Made by a program: the position numbers and the translations under genes. Of a DNA stretch of 64,000 nt, positions 2,498 to 59,472 are shown piece by piece. This DNA is from Bacillota bacterium (GTDB lineage: Bacteria; Bacillota_I; Bacilli_A; RF39; UBA660): assembly GCA_015059335.1 (NCBI GenBank), contig SVAP01000002.1, forward strand, positions 76,170 through 140,169. The letters run 5' to 3'. Position 1 is the stretch's first letter; every line of letters starts with the position of its first letter. A model generated the notes under the pieces. That model searched no databases. It saw only the letters and a program-made list of their open reading frames with translations, and was not told the origin of the DNA.

Positions 2498-3103
2498 ATG
2501 AGAAAAAGTATTGTATTAGTAACATTATTATTGATTATGGTTTTGCCTCTAAAAGTTAATGCTGAATGTAGTATTAATGATCAAAATGAATTGTTAAAAC
2601 TTTCAAATCAAATCAAATACAAGTATAAATATGTTTCTGACAATCAATTTAAAATTGTTTTTAATAATGTTAGTGATAAATTATATATAATAGATGATAT
2701 AGGTCTTCAATATAGTAATAACGAAGAAAAAGATCTAACATATAAAGGTGGATTCACTAGAATTTTTCATATAGCCGCTAATGGAAATACAAATTGTTCT
2801 AACGAGATAATAAAAGATTTAACTATTAGACTACCTATATATAATAAATTTTCAGAAAATGAAAAATGTTCTAAAGAAGAATATAAAGATTTTAAATATT
2901 GTAATAAATTTTTATACGAGGAAATTAGTGAAGAAAAGTGGAAAAAAGAATTATCAAAATATGAAAGTAAATTAGAAAAAAATATAATAACTAATGATAA
3001 TAACATTGTTAAAATAGTAATTGGAATTGGACTTATAGTATTTACAATTCTAACAATAGGTATAATTATGATAATAAGAAAAAGAAAAAGGAGGAAGTTT
3101 TAG
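2498..3103 (+). CDS. Membrane-anchored extracytoplasmic protein of unknown function (first gene of surface cassette)
   Basis: A 201-residue protein with an N-terminal signal peptide (VLVTLLLIMVLPLKVNA), an extracellular domain of about 145 residues with four cysteines after the signal, and one C-terminal membrane helix (about 168-190) ending in a basic tail RKRKRRKF. This is the layout of a type I membrane protein facing outward. The segment RLPIYNKFS followed by a Cys and a YC pair looks like a conserved motif, but I do not recognise the family. A TATAAT box lies at 2463-2468 and AAGAGGGTG is the SD. The next gene starts directly after its stop codon, so the two are surely co-transcribed. 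Confidence 0.75.
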   Translation: MRKSIVLVTLLLIMVLPLKVNAECSINDQNELLKLSNQIKYKYKYVSDNQFKIVFNNVSDKLYIIDDIGLQYSNNEEKDLTYKGGFTRIFHIAANGNTNCSNEIIKDLTIRLPIYNKFSENEKCSKEEYKDFKYCNKFLYEEISEEKWKKELSKYESKLEKNIITNDNNIVKIVIGIGLIVFTILTIGIIMIIRKRKRRKF

Positions 3104-5716
3104 ATGAAAAATACAAAGATTAAAAAAATCTTCTTTCTTTTTAGTGTAATACTAATTATGTGTTTTATATTTCCATTAGATATTAATGCTCAAAATATAT
3201 GTGGTGTAGATAGATCATGTGATGCTGTTGGAAGTGCTTGTGGTGGAACTGGTAGTTTTGGAACACATACTAATGAATTTGGTAAACATTATAGTGGTAT
3301 AGTAGCTGAATGTATGAAAATGTCCGCATCTGATGCTAATGGTGGAGGGGGATATTACACTTGTATTAATGATGAATATGTAAATGGTGCAAATGGTGGT
3401 TTTCGTAAAGTAGATAATGGAAATAGCAAAAAAGAACAACTTGCACAATTTGATTTAGGAATTTTTAATACATGGAGTTTAAGTGGTAGTGGAAACGGAT
3501 GGCAAAAAGATGCCGGATTAGGCATTCAAACTTGTCCAGGAATGAATATCACTTATACAAGAACACAAAGTATTCCTGGAGCAGTAAAAGATAAAAAGAA
3601 TTTAAAAATTATAAGTATCAAATTATTATTAAGTGATGGAGATATTAATAAATATTGGTCTGGAAATGAGGCTGAAGGAATTTGGAATTGGTCATTACAA
3701 GAAGGTAGTGCATCTATTGAACTTTTAGATAATGGTAATTATGATGATGGTCACTATAGTTTTAAAATTTCTATTAATAATCTTGGATCCAAATCAGGAA
3801 TTGGTGGTTCAGGTTTAGGAATGAACGGTAGAGTTAGTGGACATGCAAATTATGTTAGGGCGTATCACTACTATATTCCAATGGAAATTATATGGGAATA
3901 TGATAATGAAAACTATGATCCTTGTGAAGATGCTAATTATGCATATGATAATCCTGGTAAATGTTGTGATGATTATCCTGAAACATGTTGTGATAAACCT
4001 GACTATTTAAAAGAAAAAGGATATACTGATGCTTATAACTTTTGTTGTAGAGAAGGGGAATATAACTATTATGGTAATTCTACTAAAGCATTGCCAACAT
4101 TTAGAAAATATTTTATATATGCTGGTGAAATAGATAGATTATGTCCAAGTGAAGTTTGTACTAAAGCAGAAGATTATGATTATGATGAGAGTACAAATAC
4201 TCCATCATATTGTTGTGAACAAGGTAAAAATGGTATGCTTAATGGTAATGCACTAAATATATATAACTCTTATAAAGGTAACTGTAATAAAGAAGTTACT
4301 GAATGTAATGTTAGTAAGTGTAGTAATACACAATATTTTGAAGATAATACAAGGTGTTGTTGTAATGATTCTAGATATTCATCAAGTAGTAAGTGTAAAT
4401 ATATTCCTGATAGTGTATGGTCAAATTCTACATCATGTAAAAATACAACTTCTTCAAATGTAGCAACTGGTTCTAATAGGGATAATACAATAACTGAATC
4501 AATTGATTTTCTTGAATATACAACATTATCTGATATGAAGAAAAATGTTTTAAAGGCTGGTACAGGTTTTGAATATAAAGTTAAAGTAAGACATACAATA
4601 ACTAGGAGTTATAAAGGTACTACAAGTTTTGATTATACTAATTATGTAGATCCTGATTCAAGTGATATCCGTGATATTAAAAACGAAATTACGGATACAA
4701 TTGAAGGATATACTGATGCAAATACGAGCGATGATGAAAATAAAATTAAACAGTTTTTAACTGATAATTCTAGTAATACTTCAACATTTATGCTTAATGG
4801 TACTACGTCTGATTTATCAAGTAGGTACATTTTAAACGATATGAATAATGATGGAAATATTGATAATAATGATATAACAGTAATTTCAAATGGAGTAGGT
4901 AGAAATAGTAGAGTAAGTTATACATATAAAGAATGGAGATATGGAAGACATATGGATCCATATCTTGATGAAGAAACGGATTATATGAATATACCTTTAT
5001 CAAAAACTTATGTATATGAATATGAAATTATACTCTCACAAAAACAAATCGCCAAATTAACTGGTAATGTTATAGAAAGTAATACAAAAACAACAGAATA
5101 CATGGATGGTGGAAATAAATTTTATAGCGAAACAACTTCTTATTCTGGTGTTTACGATTTTAATATTTCTATTGAAGATAGTGGGATAACTGGAAATTTA
5201 TCTACTCCATCATCAGGATTTAAATGTCAATATGGTGTGGTTAATGAAATAACAAAAAATGGTAAAGTAGATACTTCCATTCCTGGCGAACCTACATTTA
5301 ATGAAGAAGATGATAAAGGTAGAGGATTTTATTTCAGACAAATATCATTATCTAATCCTTTCCCTAAAGGTAGAAATCCAGGACTAAATTGGGATAAGTA
5401 TTATGATAAAAACTCTGGTGTTGCACAGTATATAACACATTCAGGGAAACGTGATAGCTATGGTAGTGAAGGCGATAAAAAACTTGATAGTGTATACACT
5501 AAAGAACCAATATATGAAATCACTATTGATTCATATTTAATCAATCAAATTAAAAATTATAATAGAGATAATGGATATGATTATAGTTGGGATGGAATGG
5601 TAAGTAAAGCTTATAATGCTCTTGATTCTACAAGTTCTTTTATTGAAGATGATTTTAAGGACTATATAAAAATTAGAACTGGATTTGATACATCAGTTAA
5701 AGTAGGTGATTTTTAA
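3104..5716 (+). CDS. Large secreted cysteine-rich protein with one EF-hand-like loop (unknown function)
   Basis: An 870-residue protein with a clear signal peptide (KKIFFLFSVILIMCFIFPLDINAQ). I count 26 cysteines, most of them between residues about 275 and 450, in CC and CCC clusters such as KCCDDY, TCCDKP, FCC, YCC and RCCCND. This predicts a disulfide-knotted module. A 12-residue loop DMNNDGNIDNND (579-590) has the spacing of a calcium-binding EF-hand/dockerin loop. The protein has no C-terminal anchor, LPXTG motif or second membrane helix, so it is either released or held by its partners. It lies between a one-pass membrane protein and a small N-terminally anchored protein whose start overlaps its stop. 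Function unknown; a structural surface component is the simplest reading. Confidence 0.75.
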   Translation: MKNTKIKKIFFLFSVILIMCFIFPLDINAQNICGVDRSCDAVGSACGGTGSFGTHTNEFGKHYSGIVAECMKMSASDANGGGGYYTCINDEYVNGANGGFRKVDNGNSKKEQLAQFDLGIFNTWSLSGSGNGWQKDAGLGIQTCPGMNITYTRTQSIPGAVKDKKNLKIISIKLLLSDGDINKYWSGNEAEGIWNWSLQEGSASIELLDNGNYDDGHYSFKISINNLGSKSGIGGSGLGMNGRVSGHANYVRAYHYYIPMEIIWEYDNENYDPCEDANYAYDNPGKCCDDYPETCCDKPDYLKEKGYTDAYNFCCREGEYNYYGNSTKALPTFRKYFIYAGEIDRLCPSEVCTKAEDYDYDESTNTPSYCCEQGKNGMLNGNALNIYNSYKGNCNKEVTECNVSKCSNTQYFEDNTRCCCNDSRYSSSSKCKYIPDSVWSNSTSCKNTTSSNVATGSNRDNTITESIDFLEYTTLSDMKKNVLKAGTGFEYKVKVRHTITRSYKGTTSFDYTNYVDPDSSDIRDIKNEITDTIEGYTDANTSDDENKIKQFLTDNSSNTSTFMLNGTTSDLSSRYILNDMNNDGNIDNNDITVISNGVGRNSRVSYTYKEWRYGRHMDPYLDEETDYMNIPLSKTYVYEYEIILSQKQIAKLTGNVIESNTKTTEYMDGGNKFYSETTSYSGVYDFNISIEDSGITGNLSTPSSGFKCQYGVVNEITKNGKVDTSIPGEPTFNEEDDKGRGFYFRQISLSNPFPKGRNPGLNWDKYYDKNSGVAQYITHSGKRDSYGSEGDKKLDSVYTKEPIYEITIDSYLINQIKNYNRDNGYDYSWDGMVSKAYNALDSTSSFIEDDFKDYIKIRTGFDTSVKVGDF

Positions 5717-6132
5717 TGAAAGAATCGTTTTGGGGATATTTAATAATTATACTTGGAGTACTTACTCTTTCTGTAATATTACTATTTAATGATGTAACAA
5801 ATACTAATGATCAAAATTATTATTTAGTAAAAGAAGTTACAGAAGCTGCAATGATTGATGCGATAGATATTGCATATTATCGTCAAACTGGTATTTTAGC
5901 TATTAACAAAGATAAGTTTGCAGAAAATTTTATTAGAAGATACGCTGAAAGTGCTTCAGCTGGTAAAACATATAATATAAAAATATATGATGTTGTTGAA
6001 CAGCCACCTAAAGTAAGTTTAAGTGTTAGTTCTAAATCAAATGTTTTTAACTTTACTGGTACTGCTGAAACGTTTGATATAATAAATAAAATAGATGCAA
6101 TTCTAGAAAGCAGAGAACAAGCAGAGGATTAG
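5716..6132 (+). CDS. Small membrane-anchored pilin/TadE-like protein (third gene of surface cassette)
   Basis: A 138-residue protein with one N-terminal membrane helix (WGYLIIILGVLTLSVILLF) and an outward domain. The region just after the helix (VKEVTEAAMIDAIDIAYYR) resembles the start of TadE/pseudopilin-like minor subunits, but no canonical prepilin cleavage motif is present. The ATG overlaps the last base of the preceding stop (TAATG), so translation is probably coupled to the cysteine-rich protein. A terminator overlaps its own stop codon, closing the cassette. Family assignment is tentative. Confidence 0.65.
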   Translation: MKESFWGYLIIILGVLTLSVILLFNDVTNTNDQNYYLVKEVTEAAMIDAIDIAYYRQTGILAINKDKFAENFIRRYAESASAGKTYNIKIYDVVEQPPKVSLSVSSKSNVFNFTGTAETFDIINKIDAILESREQAED

Positions 6133-6979: not shown

Positions 6980-6996
6980 TATAATAAATATGGTGA
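6980..6996 (+). promoter_or_regulatory. Fused -10 box and SD of the alpha/beta hydrolase
   Basis: TATAAT (6980-6985), six bases, then GGTGA (6992-6996), five bases, then ATG 7002. Transcription should begin at or inside the SD. The same geometry recurs through the window. Confidence 0.6.
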
Positions 6997-7001
6997 ATGA
7001 A

Positions 7002-7730
7002 ATGATAGAATGTATTAAAGATTGTAATATTAATTATATTCAATATGGAAATAAAAAAGGAAAAGAAATAGTTTTACTTCATGGTTGGGGTCAAAATATA
7101 GAAATGATGAAACCAATTGGTGATGGTCTATGTGATAAATATCATATAACTATTATCGATTTACCTGGTTTTGGTAAAAGTGATGAACCGAAAGAATCAT
7201 TTAGTCTATATGATTATTATGAATGTGTAAAAGAGTTATTGACTAGATTAAATGTTAAGAATCCTACAATGGTTGGTCACTCATTTGGTGGAAGAATATC
7301 AATAATATATTCAGCATTAGAACAAACAGAAAAATTGGTTTTGCTTAGTAGTCCATTTATAAAAAGAATTAAAAAACAATCAATTAAAACAAAAATGTTA
7401 AAAATATTGAAAAAAATCCCTGGTCTTAATGCTTTAGAAGAATTTGCTAAAAGCCATATAGGATCAATTGACTATAGAAATGCAACTCCAATAATGAGAG
7501 ATACATTAGTTAAAACTGTAAATCAAGATTTAACAGATTATGTAAAAAAAATTAATGCTTCAACAATATTAATTGCTGGAGAATTTGATACTGCAGTACC
7601 TCTTGATGAAATGAAACAATATGAAAATTATATTGAAGATAGTGCATTAATTATATATCCAGGATGCACTCACTATGCATATTTAGAAGACGCTAATAGA
7701 ACAATTGCGATTATTAGAAATTTTATATAG
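7002..7730 (+). CDS. Alpha/beta-fold hydrolase next to a membrane MurF-like ligase
   Basis: A 242-residue cytoplasmic hydrolase with the oxyanion strand LLHGWGQN, the nucleophile elbow GHSFGGR, an acidic residue in GEFDTAVP and the catalytic His in GCTHYAYLE, so a complete Ser-Asp-His triad is present. The core is closest to small esterase/peptidase-type enzymes such as MhpC/prolyl aminopeptidase relatives. The substrate cannot be read from sequence. Only nine bases separate it from the MurF-like gene, whose SD begins at its stop codon, so they form one operon. That context suggests a peptide, ester or lipid-linked wall precursor as substrate, which is inference. ATG 7002 was chosen over ATG 6990 because of the GGTGA SD. 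Confidence 0.8.
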   Translation: MIECIKDCNINYIQYGNKKGKEIVLLHGWGQNIEMMKPIGDGLCDKYHITIIDLPGFGKSDEPKESFSLYDYYECVKELLTRLNVKNPTMVGHSFGGRISIIYSALEQTEKLVLLSSPFIKRIKKQSIKTKMLKILKKIPGLNALEEFAKSHIGSIDYRNATPIMRDTLVKTVNQDLTDYVKKINASTILIAGEFDTAVPLDEMKQYENYIEDSALIIYPGCTHYAYLEDANRTIAIIRNFI

Positions 7731-7739
7731 GAGGTAAAT

Positions 7740-9332
7740 ATGTTTGGATTTATACTAACACTATTTTTATGGTTTATATTAGTTATTATAAAATTAAAAA
7801 AGAGTTTGCACATGTTACAACAAAATCTATATAATAAAGGAAACAGATATCTAAAATGGATAATTAATAATTTTAAAAAAGTATTTTTATCTATAGATAT
7901 AATATTGGTTATATTTTTGTTGTTTTTACAAATATCTAAAAATTATGTTATTAATACAATATTAATATGCCTATTGTTGCTTGTTTCTATAATTAAATAT
8001 ATAAACGATAATCTTGAAGATAAAAAGAAAAGTAAAAAACCATTAGTATATACTAATAGAATAAAAAGATTAATTGTAACGATTTGTATTTTACTTATAA
8101 TACCAGTAATATTAATGGTTAAGAATTTTAATTATGAAATTTCAAGTAATTATTATACTAGATTGATTATTTTAGTATATTTAATATATTTTGTTAGTTT
8201 ATTGGCAACTATAATTAATATACCAATAGAAAAATATGTATATTATTCATTTAAAAATAAAGCAATGAAAAAATTAAAAAATTTAAACAGCCTTAAGGTT
8301 ATTGGTATAACTGGTAGTTATGGTAAAACAAGTAGTAAGAATATATTAAGTGATATATTAAATATTAAATATAATGCTTTACCATCACCTAAAAACTTTA
8401 ATACACCATATGGTCTTATTATGACAATAAATAATACATTGGATAAATTTGATGATATATTTATTGCAGAAATGGGTGCTTATAAAAAGGGTGAAATTAA
8501 GGAATTATGTGATTTAGTAAATCCTAAATATGGAATATTGACTACTATTGGAACTGCACATTTAGAAAGTTTTGGTAGTGAAGAAAATATCATTAAAACT
8601 AAGTTTGAACTTATTGAATCGTTACCAAGTGATGGTGTTGCGGTACTTAATATGGATGATGATAAACAGGTATCATATAACATTAAAAGTAAGTGTAAAA
8701 AAATATGGGTTGGAATAAATAATGATAAAGCAGATTTTGTAGCAACTAATATTAAAATGAATAATAAGGGAATGAGTTTTGAAGTAGTTATTAATGGTGA
8801 AAAGGTAAAATTTAATACTAAATTATTAGGTGTTCCAAACATTTATAATATTCTAGCAGGAATTGCTTTAGGTAACTATTTTGGAATAAGTAATGAACAA
8901 CTAAAAAGTGCGGTATTAAATGTTAAGAATACAGAACACAGATTAGAACTTAAAAATGCAGGGGATATTACTTATATTGATGATTCATATAATTCAAATC
9001 CTGTTGGTTCTAAAATGGCGCTTGATGTATTAAATTTAATGCCAGGTAAAAAAATAATAATGACTCCTGGTATGATTGAACTTGGATCTAAACAATATGA
9101 ACTTAATAAAGAACTTGGTGAATATATTGCTTCTGTATGTGATGAGGTAATATTAGTTGGTGAAAAGCAAACTATACCTATACAAGATGGGTTAAAAGCT
9201 AAAAATTATAATGAAAAGAAAATACATATTACAAATGATGTGAAAGAGGGATTTAAAATAGTCGAAAGGCTTAAGACTAAAAACACATATGTATTAATAG
9301 AAAATGATTTGCCAGATTTATTTAATGAATAG
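7740..9332 (+). CDS. Membrane-anchored MurF-like Mur ligase lacking the usual N-terminal substrate domain
   Basis: A 530-residue protein with two halves. Residues 1 to about 165 hold about five hydrophobic helices (near 2-18, 48-66, 68-87, 108-127, 140-160). From 185 on it has a Mur ligase central domain with the P-loop GITGSYGKTSSKN (189-201), EMGAYKKGEI, TTIGTAHLESFGS and KFELI, then the C-terminal domain with NTEHRLE and DDSYNSNPVGS. The roughly 80-residue N-terminal UDP-binding domain of ordinary MurF is absent and replaced by the membrane part. Known family chemistry is ATP-dependent peptide bond formation. Acting on a membrane-bound acceptor is inference. A Ddl follows 12 bases later, supplying a possible dipeptide substrate. 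A canonical MurF is encoded separately at 57129-58469. Confidence 0.82.
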   Translation: MFGFILTLFLWFILVIIKLKKSLHMLQQNLYNKGNRYLKWIINNFKKVFLSIDIILVIFLLFLQISKNYVINTILICLLLLVSIIKYINDNLEDKKKSKKPLVYTNRIKRLIVTICILLIIPVILMVKNFNYEISSNYYTRLIILVYLIYFVSLLATIINIPIEKYVYYSFKNKAMKKLKNLNSLKVIGITGSYGKTSSKNILSDILNIKYNALPSPKNFNTPYGLIMTINNTLDKFDDIFIAEMGAYKKGEIKELCDLVNPKYGILTTIGTAHLESFGSEENIIKTKFELIESLPSDGVAVLNMDDDKQVSYNIKSKCKKIWVGINNDKADFVATNIKMNNKGMSFEVVINGEKVKFNTKLLGVPNIYNILAGIALGNYFGISNEQLKSAVLNVKNTEHRLELKNAGDITYIDDSYNSNPVGSKMALDVLNLMPGKKIIMTPGMIELGSKQYELNKELGEYIASVCDEVILVGEKQTIPIQDGLKAKNYNEKKIHITNDVKEGFKIVERLKTKNTYVLIENDLPDLFNE

Positions 9333-9344
9333 GAGATGTAATTT

Positions 9345-10544
9345 ATGATAAAAGTTGGTGTAATATTTGGTGGAGAAAGCGTTGAACACGAAGTTAGTAT
9401 TATTTCTGCTGTTCAAGCTATGCAAAATTTAGATAAAGAAAAATATATTGCTGTTCCAATATATGTAACTAAAGATAGAGAAATGTATACTGCTCACTTT
9501 TTAAAAGATATAGAAATATATCAAGATATGGATAATTTAAAAAGATATGCTAAAAATGTAGTACTATATGTTAGAAACAATAGAATTGTTTTACAAAATA
9601 AAAAAGGATTTAGAAGAACGGTAGATGAAATTGATATTGTATTACCAATTGTTCATGGCACAAATGTAGAAGATGGAACATTACAAGGATATTTAGATTT
9701 ATTAGGTATTCCATACGTTGGAAGTAACCATTACTCTGCAGCAGTTGGACAAGATAAAGTATTTATGAAACAAATATTTGAATCTGGTAATTTGTCTGTT
9801 GCGCCATATGTATGGTTTTTTGAAAATGAGTATTATAATGATAAAGATAATGTTATTAAGAAAATAGAAAAGATTAAATATCCAATGATTGTTAAACCAT
9901 CAAAATTAGGTAGTAGTGTTGGAATATCAAAAGTAAACAATAGAGATGAACTTACTGAAGCTATTGAAGACGCTATCAAATATGACGATAAAATTGTTAT
10001 TGAAGAATGTATTGAAAACTTAATAGAAGTTAATGCAAGTGTTTTAGGTGATCATTCGTACTACGAGGTTAGTGAATTAGAACAAGTGATGGGAAAAGAC
10101 GCTATACTTAGTTATAATGATAAATATATGGGTAATGGTAAAGGTAAATTAAAAGGTGGAAATTCTTCGAGAAGTAAAGGAATGGTATCAACTGATAGAA
10201 TCATACCTGCCAATATTGATAAAAAATTAAGAGACGAAATTATTAATATTTCTAAAGATGCAGCTAGACTATTAAATACTAGTGGTGTAGTCAGAATAGA
10301 TTATTTAATTGATAAGAAAAAGAAAAAAGTATATATAAATGAGGTTAATACTATTCCAGGTTCGTTATCATTTTATTTATGGGAGCCTAAAGGAGTTAGT
10401 TATAAAAAATTACTAGATAATATTATTACTCTTGCGATTAAAAATTATAAGAAGAAAATTAAAAAAACTTTCTCTTTTGATACAAATATATTAAAAAATG
10501 CTAAACTTGGTAATGGTACTAAGGGTGTTAAAAATAGATTTTAA
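9345..10544 (+). CDS. ddl: D-alanine--D-alanine ligase (first of two)
   Basis: ATP-grasp ligase that joins two D-Ala for the peptidoglycan stem. At 399 residues it is longer than the second copy (333). It shows GGESVEHEVSI near the start, the KPSKLGSSVGIS phosphate loop, an active-site Lys-Tyr in YNDKYMG and the metal-binding RIDYLI and NEVNTIPGSLSF. The Tyr argues against a VanA-type D-Ala-D-Lac enzyme. The omega-loop is long and glycine/lysine rich, and a basic tail of about 30 residues ends the protein. AGGAGATG provides the SD. It forms an operon with the membrane MurF-like ligase and the hydrolase upstream and ends at a strong terminator. Confidence 0.9.
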   Translation: MIKVGVIFGGESVEHEVSIISAVQAMQNLDKEKYIAVPIYVTKDREMYTAHFLKDIEIYQDMDNLKRYAKNVVLYVRNNRIVLQNKKGFRRTVDEIDIVLPIVHGTNVEDGTLQGYLDLLGIPYVGSNHYSAAVGQDKVFMKQIFESGNLSVAPYVWFFENEYYNDKDNVIKKIEKIKYPMIVKPSKLGSSVGISKVNNRDELTEAIEDAIKYDDKIVIEECIENLIEVNASVLGDHSYYEVSELEQVMGKDAILSYNDKYMGNGKGKLKGGNSSRSKGMVSTDRIIPANIDKKLRDEIINISKDAARLLNTSGVVRIDYLIDKKKKKVYINEVNTIPGSLSFYLWEPKGVSYKKLLDNIITLAIKNYKKKIKKTFSFDTNILKNAKLGNGTKGVKNRF

Positions 10545-10551
10545 TATGATT

Positions 10552-10586
10552 AAAGATACAGAAAAATAGTCTGTATCTTTTTTGTG
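10552..10586 (+). terminator. Terminator after the hydrolase/Mur ligase/Ddl operon
   Basis: A perfect 10-bp stem AAAGATACAG (10552-10561) / CTGTATCTTT (10571-10580) is followed by a T run. Confidence 0.88.
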
Positions 10587-57128: not shown

Positions 57129-58469
57129 CTATTTATCGTTATCAGAAAGCTTTAGTAATAACTCATCTACAATTTTTTCTAACCCAATTCCCCTTGATGC
57201 TTTAAAATATACTATATTTTTCTTCTTATTATTCATTTGATTAATTATGTCATTAATTATATTGGAATTATTATCTGATAATTTAAATTGTTTTTTTATA
57301 ATATTACTGTTTGATACTTCATCTAAAACATATTTAACATCATTTCCTGATACATATAATACATCAATATTATTTTTATTAATTAATTTTCCTATTTCTT
57401 TATGATAATATGGTGACCACTCCCCTAGTTCCAACATGTCTCCAAGATAGAGTAGTAAGTGATAATTTTTTTTACCATAATTTTTAATTATATTTTCGAT
57501 TCCAGATTTCATTGAATCATAATTAGCATTATAGCAATCATTAATTATAATATTATTTTTAATTTTTATTTTTTCCATTCTCATTTTAGGTGTTTTGTGT
57601 AATTTTAAATATTTTTTAAATTTATTAAGTTTAATATTAAAAACTTTACTGATTTCATATGCTAATGCGATATTAATAGGGTACTCCCCTACTTTATTAA
57701 ATTTCTTAATAGAGTCGGTAAGTCCATATTTAAATGTGGTGTAATTGCTACTTAATCCTACTCCATTTAAATATTCATCATCATTATTAATAAATAATAA
57801 GCCGTTTTCTTTTAATCCTGACGTTATTTCCATCTTTGCTTTTAATATATTATCTTTTGAACCTAGGATACCAATATGTGCAGTACCTATATTTGTTATT
57901 ATCGCAATATCTGGTTCGGCAATATTACTTAACTTTTCAATTTCGCCAAAGTGGTTCATTCCCATTTCTAAAATACATATATCATGTTTATTAAGTTTTA
58001 AGAGTGTTAAGGGTAATCCTATATGATTATTTAAATTTCCTTCGGTTTTTAATACATTGTAATCATATTTTAAAGTGTCATATATTAAATCTTTAGTACT
58101 TGTTTTTCCGTTGCTGCCAGTAATTGCAATAACTTTGGTATCTTTATTTTTAATTCTATTATAATGTGCAAGTTCTTGTAATGCTTGTAATGTATCCCCT
58201 ACTTCTATTGCGCTAATATTATTATCAAAGCAGGTTTTAATTAATTTATCCATTTGAGTATGATTTGAGGCGATTAATACTGCGTTACAATCATTTTTAA
58301 TTGCGTCTAGTATAAATTCATGCCCATCATGTTTTTCGCCTAAAATCGGGATAAAAAGCGCGTTATTTTTAATATCGTTACTGTTTATTGAAATAGTATC
58401 AATATTCTTCTTATTATTATATAAAATAGTACCGTTAATTGCGTTATTTATTTCTTCTATAGAAAACAT
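57129..58469 (-). CDS. murF: UDP-N-acetylmuramoyl-tripeptide--D-alanyl-D-alanine ligase (canonical MurF)
   Basis: Adds D-Ala-D-Ala to UDP-MurNAc-tripeptide in the cytoplasm. The 446-residue protein has all three Mur domains: the N-terminal substrate domain (about 1-95, with ISINSNDIKNNALFIPILGEKHDGHEF), the ATPase domain with AITGSNGKTSTKD, EMGMNHFGEI and TNIGTAHIGILGS, and the C-terminal domain with INDCYNANYDSMK. It is translated two bases after the ddl stop behind AAGGTGAT. Contrast it with the membrane form at 7740, which lacks the first domain. Confidence 0.94.
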   Translation of the reverse strand: MFSIEEINNAINGTILYNNKKNIDTISINSNDIKNNALFIPILGEKHDGHEFILDAIKNDCNAVLIASNHTQMDKLIKTCFDNNISAIEVGDTLQALQELAHYNRIKNKDTKVIAITGSNGKTSTKDLIYDTLKYDYNVLKTEGNLNNHIGLPLTLLKLNKHDICILEMGMNHFGEIEKLSNIAEPDIAIITNIGTAHIGILGSKDNILKAKMEITSGLKENGLLFINNDDEYLNGVGLSSNYTTFKYGLTDSIKKFNKVGEYPINIALAYEISKVFNIKLNKFKKYLKLHKTPKMRMEKIKIKNNIIINDCYNANYDSMKSGIENIIKNYGKKNYHLLLYLGDMLELGEWSPYYHKEIGKLINKNNIDVLYVSGNDVKYVLDEVSNSNIIKKQFKLSDNNSNIINDIINQMNNKKKNIVYFKASRGIGLEKIVDELLLKLSDNDK

Positions 58470-58470
58470 A

Positions 58471-59472
58471 TTAAATCACCTTCTTTTCGTATTTTAATCT
58501 TCCCAAATCTATTAATTTATCTATTAATGTTTCATATTTAATACCCACATTTTCAAATAATAATGGATACATGCTAATGTTTGTGAAACCAGGCATCGTA
58601 TTTATTTCATTAAGATATATTTCATTGCTATCATTTTTTAAAAAGAAATCTATACGTGATAATCCACTACATTCTAATGCTTTATACGCTTGTTTCGCAA
58701 TTTCTTTTATTTTTGTTTTTATTTCGGAATTAATGATAGCAGGAATTTTAACAATTGAATCCTTTGAATTATATTTTGCATCATAACTATAAAAATCATC
58801 AGCAGGTAATATTTCTCCAACGTTACTTACTATTATATCATTATTTCCTAAAATTCCAACTTCTAATTCTCTACCATATATACATTCTTCAATAATTATT
58901 TTTTCATCATAATTAAACGCACCATTTATATTTTCTAATAATTCATGTTCATGGTAAACTTTATTAATACCTACACTACTTCCTGCATTTGCAGGTTTTA
59001 TAAAACAAGGATATTTGATTTCTTCTTTAATTATAGCTTTAATACGGTCTATATTATAATCATTTTTATTAACGATAATATATTTTGCTTGTTTAATTCC
59101 AATGTTATCTAATACTATCTTTGTAAATGCTTTATCCATACATAACGCACTACTAATTAAATTACATCCTACGTACGGAACATTAATCATATCAAAATAT
59201 CCTTGTATTTTCCCATCTTCACCATTGTTACCATGTAGAATAGGAAATACGCAATAACAATCTTTAAATATGCTATTATCAACTATTGATTTTCTATCGT
59301 CAAGCTTATTTATATTCTTGCATAAACTCCATTCCCCGTTTTTAGTTATATATATAAGTGTTATATCATATTTATTTTTATTAATATATTTTAAAATACT
59401 TTTAGCAGATTTAATTGAAATATCATGTTCGTAGCTTTTACCACCAAAAATTAATATAATTTTCTTTTTCAT
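58471..59472 (-). CDS. ddl: D-alanine--D-alanine ligase (second copy)
   Basis: A 333-residue ATP-grasp ligase with GGKSYEHDISIKSAKSI, LHGNNGEDGKIQGYFD, KPANAGSSVGINKV, the Tyr-containing YSYDAKYNSKD loop and RIDFFL..NEINTMPGFTNISMYP. It is closer to housekeeping Ddl of Bacilli than the copy at 9345, which has a long omega loop and basic tail. It is co-transcribed with canonical murF. The start region overlaps a terminator-like hairpin. Confidence 0.93.
   Translation of the reverse strand: MKKKIILIFGGKSYEHDISIKSAKSILKYINKNKYDITLIYITKNGEWSLCKNINKLDDRKSIVDNSIFKDCYCVFPILHGNNGEDGKIQGYFDMINVPYVGCNLISSALCMDKAFTKIVLDNIGIKQAKYIIVNKNDYNIDRIKAIIKEEIKYPCFIKPANAGSSVGINKVYHEHELLENINGAFNYDEKIIIEECIYGRELEVGILGNNDIIVSNVGEILPADDFYSYDAKYNSKDSIVKIPAIINSEIKTKIKEIAKQAYKALECSGLSRIDFFLKNDSNEIYLNEINTMPGFTNISMYPLLFENVGIKYETLIDKLIDLGRLKYEKKVI

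Follow-up and report, generated by a model that had tools for sequence, protein, structure and literature searches.

A MurF-type ligase with a membrane domain in place of the UDP-binding domain, encoded between a hydrolase and a D-alanine–D-alanine ligase in uncultured Bacilli

Gene content of the locus

We analyzed a stretch of 64,000 nucleotides (hereafter the window) from a Bacillota bacterium of the GTDB family UBA660, which corresponds to positions 76,170 to 140,169 of the forward strand of contig SVAP01000002.1 (assembly GCA_015059335.1). The source genome comprises 1.3 megabases (Mb) in 18 contigs and is 90% complete; its nearest named relatives are uncultured Bacilli, several of them from rabbit or goat samples judging by the record titles. 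Between positions 6990 and 10544 of the window, the open reading frame (ORF) calls place a serine hydrolase, a Mur ligase and a D-alanine–D-alanine (D-Ala-D-Ala) ligase (Ddl) in this order, separated by gaps of 9 and 12 base pairs (Table 1). The middle gene encodes a ligase of the MurF type in which predicted membrane helices take the place of the domain that binds the uridine diphosphate (UDP)-linked substrate. The tight spacing and the identities of the three genes had been proposed in a preliminary description based on the sequence, and they were borne out by the ORF coordinates and by Pfam domains, respectively. The hydrolase gene proposed there also stands but its start at 7002 does not, since the ORF begins at 6990 and 7002 is an in-frame internal ATG. 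Likewise, the unusual ligase had been noticed, but neither the scale of its clade nor the ordinary murF-ddl pair located elsewhere in the window had been mentioned.

The Ddl of the locus scored above the cut-off of its family profile (NF002528, 293.5 bits against 262) and the KY of the omega loop is retained in its sequence. Directly downstream of ddl, an AT-rich inverted repeat represents a possible terminator that our terminator scan did not report.

Table 1. Features of the three-gene locus and of the second MurF-Ddl pair (window coordinates; aa, amino acids; res, residues)
Feature	Position	Strand	Evidence and remarks
Alpha/beta hydrolase, 246 aa	6990..7730	+	Alternative start 7002; Pfam Abhydrolase; Ser98 (GHSFGG), Asp200, His228
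Membrane MurF-type ligase, 530 aa	7740..9332	+	ORF, Pfam, NCBIfam, AlphaFold, Foldseek, tree
Membrane domain in place of UDP-MurNAc-binding domain, res 1-181	7740..8282	+	Five predicted transmembrane helices; no known domain
Conserved cytosolic motif HMLQQNxYxxxxRYxKW, res 24-40	7809..7859	+	Q27 and Y31 invariant
Conserved basic cytosolic loop KKPLVxTxRVKRL, res 99-111	8034..8072	+	T105 and R110 invariant, R107 almost invariant
Mur ligase central ATPase domain (Mur_ligase_M), res 190-377	8307..8870	+	GSYGKT, E244, H274, K288, N304 as in MurF
Mur ligase C-terminal domain (Mur_ligase_C), res 400-520	8937..9299	+	R401 and N418 conserved
ENDLPD tail motif, res 521-526	9300..9317	+	Replaces the KGSR-type motif of MurF
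D-alanine–D-alanine ligase (Ddl), 399 aa	9345..10544	+	Both Ddl domains in Pfam; NF002528
AT-rich inverted repeat AAAGATACAGA/TCTGTATCTTT directly 3' of the ddl stop	10552..10580	+	Read from the sequence; possible terminator
Ordinary soluble MurF with N-terminal UDP-MurNAc-binding domain	57129..58469	-	Second MurF of the source genome; N-domain profile
Second Ddl, paired with the ordinary MurF	58471..59472	-	Ddl-type sequence motifs only, no profile scan

Membrane domain, catalytic core and ancestry of the ligase

The NCBIfam profile of MurF (TIGR01143) matched the window ligase over profile positions 68-403 only, starting at residue 179. The resulting score of 244 bits falls under the cut-off of 288.6 because the N-terminal part is missing, and the other membrane-type ligases listed likewise fall short of this full-length cut-off. 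No Pfam domain was matched by residues 1-189, and residues 1-181 had no match to solved proteins in a profile search against PDB profiles. When modelled with AlphaFold, both the full-length protein and an isolated segment of residues 1-182 presented only helices and no strand before residue 186. We looked with Pfam, profiles and models for a UDP-binding fold within the first 170 residues, which would speak against a ligase that works at the membrane, and found none. We also conducted a fold search with the membrane domain alone; this yielded no usable match (best E 5.3, best Z 3.6), a result from which the fold can be called neither new nor known.

The distribution of charges fits five transmembrane helices with the N-terminus outside and the C-terminus inside. 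The mean number of lysines and arginines is 4.8, 5.4 and 6.1 in the predicted cytosolic stretches and 0.3 and 0.6 in the outer loops, and this topology would place both conserved loops, the linker and the ligase domains in the cytosol. Together with the helix-only models and the lack of a domain match, this agrees with the earlier proposal that about five membrane helices replace the UDP-substrate domain. The conserved residues of the membrane domain (Q27, Y31, T105, R107, R110, P162 and E164) are all predicted to be on the cytosolic side, and the basic loop formed by residues 99-111 is a candidate pyrophosphate-binding loop. A chance fusion or an assembly error can be ruled out as the origin of this architecture, which recurs in about a hundred genomes.

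In contrast to the N-terminal part, which is replaced, the central and C-terminal Mur domains are intact, as had been described, and the motifs GSYGKT, EMGAY and HRLE are present. Our alignment indicates that residues G192, S193, G195, K196, T197, E244, H274, K288, N304, R401 and N418 are common to the membrane-type ligases and MurF. Four substrate-side motifs are altered across the whole clade: NNxxG is changed to NTPxG, EMGMN to EMGA, GDMxELG to TPGMxxLG, and the KGSR-type tail to ENDLPD. MurF structures ranked first when the whole ligase model was searched with Foldseek. In a tree of 60 Mur ligase cores, the 22 membrane-type ligases formed a single clade (support 100) that joins MurF and MurF-like paralogues (support 97) as a sister branch rather than inside MurF, and that stands apart from MurC, MurD, MurE and MurT. 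These sequence comparisons show that the membrane ligases are a sister family of MurF, which is outside MurF as defined by the profile and which is not MurT.

The MurF-like paralogues possess a normal N-terminal domain, lie beside YheC/YheD-like ATP-grasp genes (L095 4335-5714, L096 4103-5485 and L097 4537-5895; G057 and G050) and constitute a separate clade in the tree; labels of this kind are our own handles.

Gene partnership and distribution

Our survey set was composed of the source genome and 59 relatives, and we found the membrane ligase in 39 of the latter. The hydrolase is encoded immediately 5' of the ligase at nearly all loci with enough flanking sequence, and Ddl is usually found 3' of it, directly or after a Nudix gene. 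Because the order of the three genes recurs at almost every related locus examined, the arrangement first described in the window is not due to chance. The hydrolase (E below 1e-12) was detected in all 39 relatives with the ligase and in only one (G005) of the 20 others (Fisher p 1e-14), and we conclude that it therefore belongs to the system. The catalytic triad of the hydrolase (Ser98, Asp200 and His228) is intact and does not vary among 63 homologues encoded in the same gene neighbourhood.

The exceptions to this order take several forms. In G007 and G012 the ligase has been relocated beside murE, mraY or murT, and the hydrolase and Ddl are still paired elsewhere. In G037 and G049 the ligase retains Ddl and has a tagO-like neighbour, with the hydrolase elsewhere, and at L091 murT/gatD are divergent and adjoin the ligase. 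G005 encodes the hydrolase and Ddl next to each other with no ligase between them (L175 4303-6248) and possesses an ordinary MurF, an arrangement that looks like a loss of the ligase. We also observed a tagO/wecA-like transferase gene 3' of the ligase unit in two families (L080 and L094 in f9; L085 and L087 in f2). At another locus (L180 5775-7493, G104), the ligase is followed by Ddl and the hydrolase is not directly upstream; the rest of G104 was not searched for the hydrolase.

We then considered the distribution of the two MurF types across the class, using 391 genomes of at least 95% completeness; all matches listed from a phylum-level set belonged to this one class, which the counts cover. 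A profile of its N-terminal domain identified the membrane ligase in about 115 of these genomes, and weak members such as G336 and G235 were confirmed with a full-length profile. The profile of the soluble MurF N-domain (A4) cross-matches MurE (E about 1e-17). A stricter limit was therefore imposed for soluble MurF (E about 4e-20 or better), to which G251, G269, G309 and G367 were added based on length and position. With these thresholds, on which the approximate counts depend, about 22 genomes presented both types, 93 the membrane type only and 45 the ordinary MurF only. The remaining genomes include many small ones, which are probably wall-less. In the family of the source genome, 12 genomes presented both types, 38 only the membrane type, 12 only the soluble type and 5 neither. 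Overlaps and absences are both rarer than would be expected if the two genes were independent (Fisher p 0.001, without correction for kinship), and the presence of one MurF type tends to go with the absence of the other in this family.

The lack of an ordinary MurF could result from incomplete genomes, but the Mur ligase lists of G041, G046, G118 and G377 reject this explanation for these four. In G041 (99% complete, 50 contigs) a Mur_ligase_M search yielded five ligases, the membrane type and typed MurE, MurD, MurC and MurT. For the single-contig genomes G046, G118 and G377, no ordinary MurF was found among the Mur ligases listed, and every MurE-like gene in them was assigned to MurE by a score above the TIGR01085 cut-off; two of the six Mur matches of G046 remained untyped (L145, 464 aa; L154, 434 aa, E 4e-8), and MurC, MurD and MurT of G118 and G377 were recognized from sequence starts rather than typed with profiles. 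Genomes with MurF-like paralogues beside ATP-grasp genes (f3, f8 and part of f11) were left out of this argument, since such paralogues could in principle stand in for MurF.

MraY was above its cut-off in all 16 genomes checked, each of which encodes three to six penicillin-binding transpeptidase domains (three in G044 and others). A MurF step is required wherever a bacterium possesses Ddl, MraY and penicillin-binding proteins. Because these components are present without an ordinary MurF, the membrane ligase very probably supplies this step, and we have high confidence that it is a functional MurF. Judging from gene content, it appears often to be the sole MurF of its cell across a large set of uncultured Bacilli from the gut and related bacteria. 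The earlier proposal of a Mur ligase that acts at the membrane is thus well supported by the lost UDP domain, the five helices, the sister clade and the status of sole MurF in many genomes.

The source genome possesses, in addition, the ordinary MurF-Ddl pair listed in Table 1, which amounts to two MurF and Ddl sets in a genome of 1.3 Mb. Phage and plasmid collections mainly yielded matches to ordinary MurF. Two human faecal records labelled 'Bacteriophage sp.' present unannotated stretches that resemble the membrane ligase with 42% and 34% identity (MT835658, 4926-6041, and MT835503, 28729-29997, respectively); these may be bacterial contigs filed as phage. Elsewhere in the window, positions 3104-5716 encode a predicted secreted protein of 870 aa with many cysteines, flanked by two smaller genes whose products contain membrane segments (2498-3103 and 5716-6132).

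Possible substrate and comparison with known systems

The sequences demonstrate the exchange of domains, the preserved catalytic core, the sister position to MurF, the substitution for soluble MurF in many genomes and the link with the hydrolase and Ddl; for the reaction itself, the substrate and the job of the hydrolase, we infer the following. The explanation that we find most convincing, and which we consider reasonably probable as a whole, is that of a membrane-embedded MurF with a lipid-linked tripeptide substrate and with the hydrolase as a dedicated accessory. The neighbouring Ddl would make D-Ala-D-Ala, which the membrane ligase would join to muramyl-tripeptide via the usual adenosine triphosphate/acyl-phosphate chemistry. 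The likeliest substrate would be the lipid I- or lipid II-tripeptide provided by MraY/MurG, whose pyrophosphate would be held by the basic cytosolic loops where the lipid leaves the membrane. The dedicated hydrolase, for which editing of the product had been suggested in the preliminary description, would perhaps clear wrong or stalled products. The earlier proposal of a lipid-linked substrate is reasonable, and we lean slightly toward it, because the UDP-binding domain has been lost, because conserved basic residues are predicted on the cytosolic face, and because of an argument published for MurT. As pointed out in the paper on the structure of GatD/MurT from Staphylococcus aureus, MurE and MurF bind their UDP substrates with the pyrophosphate at the boundary between the N-terminal and middle domains; in lipid II, this may be the point at which the molecule leaves the membrane (PMC6113224). 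For a lipid-linked substrate, the UDP-binding domain would be unnecessary and likely to clash with the membrane (PMC6113224). The membrane domain of the window ligase is fused exactly at this boundary. The chances appear even that the order of precursors is changed as well: MraY would transfer the tripeptide first, the membrane MurF would complete the peptide on the lipid, the UDP-linked N-acetylmuramic acid (MurNAc)-pentapeptide would not be an intermediate and the hydrolase would serve this route.

Several points weigh against this explanation. The conserved loops might provide a novel mode of nucleotide binding, and the added unit could be other than D-Ala-D-Ala, since the motifs facing the substrate differ (TPGM for GDMxELG and ENDLPD for KGSR). 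Since G005 possesses the hydrolase and Ddl without the ligase, the hydrolase may also function independently of the latter. In the source genome, the membrane ligase need not be essential, given that an ordinary MurF is also present. Finally, UDP-linked pentapeptide precursors have reportedly been found in Clostridium innocuum (Erysipelotrichaceae), which would count against a lipid-linked substrate if this species has only the membrane type.

Alternatively, the ligase might be a MurF that still uses soluble UDP-MurNAc-tripeptide, with helices that just anchor it near MraY and cytosolic loops that provide a new, weaker grip on UDP. This would require no change of pathway order when the soluble enzyme is replaced, and the catalytic core and the neighbours are those of MurF. 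We nevertheless view it as rather unlikely: the entire UDP-binding domain is gone, residues 1-181 contain no strand-bearing fold, and the most conserved N-terminal residues are predicted on the cytosolic face of the membrane. It is improbable that the ligase adds another dipeptide, for example one ending in D-serine (D-Ser) or D-lactate (D-Lac), while Ddl and the hydrolase determine or edit the end group as in van-type systems. The ligase is accompanied by its own Ddl and its own hydrolase, its C-terminal motifs are altered and the source genome possesses a second, ordinary MurF-Ddl pair, as such a function might predict; however, the Ddl of the locus is above the D-Ala-D-Ala ligase cut-off with the KY of its omega loop kept, and this MurF is the only one in many genomes. 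We give very little credence to an enzyme outside peptidoglycan synthesis that attaches a peptide to another membrane-bound polymer, which would imply a wall made without a MurF step wherever the ordinary gene is absent. Although the membrane domain lacks known relatives and tagO/wecA-like genes adjoin some loci, genomes with only the membrane ligase retain MraY, several penicillin-binding proteins, MurC-E and Ddl, the exceptional loci put the ligase beside murE, mraY or murT, and the ligase is sister to MurF.

Textbooks treat the four soluble Mur ligases as constant features of wall synthesis in bacteria, and these enzymes are drug targets. A clade-wide swap of the last of them for a membrane enzyme without a UDP site could change the order of the pathway, and the last peptide step of wall-precursor synthesis may occur on the membrane in these bacteria. 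The membrane ligase would lack the UDP site of the ordinary enzyme, and an uncharacterized serine hydrolase becomes linked to wall synthesis. If the substrate is indeed lipid-linked, this yields a testable prediction on which precursor is absent. The clade is currently hidden under labels such as MurF or Mur ligase family protein, and we found no description of a membrane MurF in the open-access literature searched. In a 2025 study of Bulleidia and relatives, MurF homologues of Erysipelotrichia were handled as ordinary MurF and the word transmembrane is absent (PMC12786226); a genome paper on Erysipelothrix lists murF and deduces D-Ala-D-Ala ends from annotation (PMC9637936).

Among known systems, MurF is the closest to the membrane ligase, with which it shares the central and C-terminal domains, the P-loop, the catalytic residues and the pairing with Ddl, in addition to being its nearest clade. 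Unlike MurF, the membrane ligase presents a five-helix membrane domain instead of the UDP-MurNAc-binding domain, carries TPGM/ENDLPD in place of GDMxELG/KGSR and scores below the family cut-off. MurT/GatD, the lipid II isoglutaminyl synthase, is similar in that it contains a Mur ligase without the UDP-binding domain and works on a lipid-linked precursor (PMC6113224, PMC6085368). MurT, however, has a short N-terminus only, depends on GatD and catalyses an amidation; with the MurT profile, the window ligase reached 27.9 bits (cut-off 800), it is distant from MurT in the tree, G041 encodes a separate murT, and gatD is absent from the three-gene unit. The poly-gamma-glutamate synthase PgsB/CapB is a relative of Mur ligases with an N-terminal membrane segment that makes an amino-acid polymer, and it has, to our knowledge, no Ddl partner. 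Up to E = 1, no PgsB/CapB family was matched by the window ligase in NCBIfam; no direct profile comparison was made. The pseudomurein ligases (pMurC and others) are also of Mur type outside the standard four, and the window ligase matches them weakly (76 bits against 560). Finally, the van-type D-Ala-D-Lac/D-Ser sets likewise combine a special Ddl and partner enzymes beside the normal pathway, but the Ddl of our locus scores as a D-Ala-D-Ala ligase and no vanH, vanX or vanT was seen in the three-gene unit.

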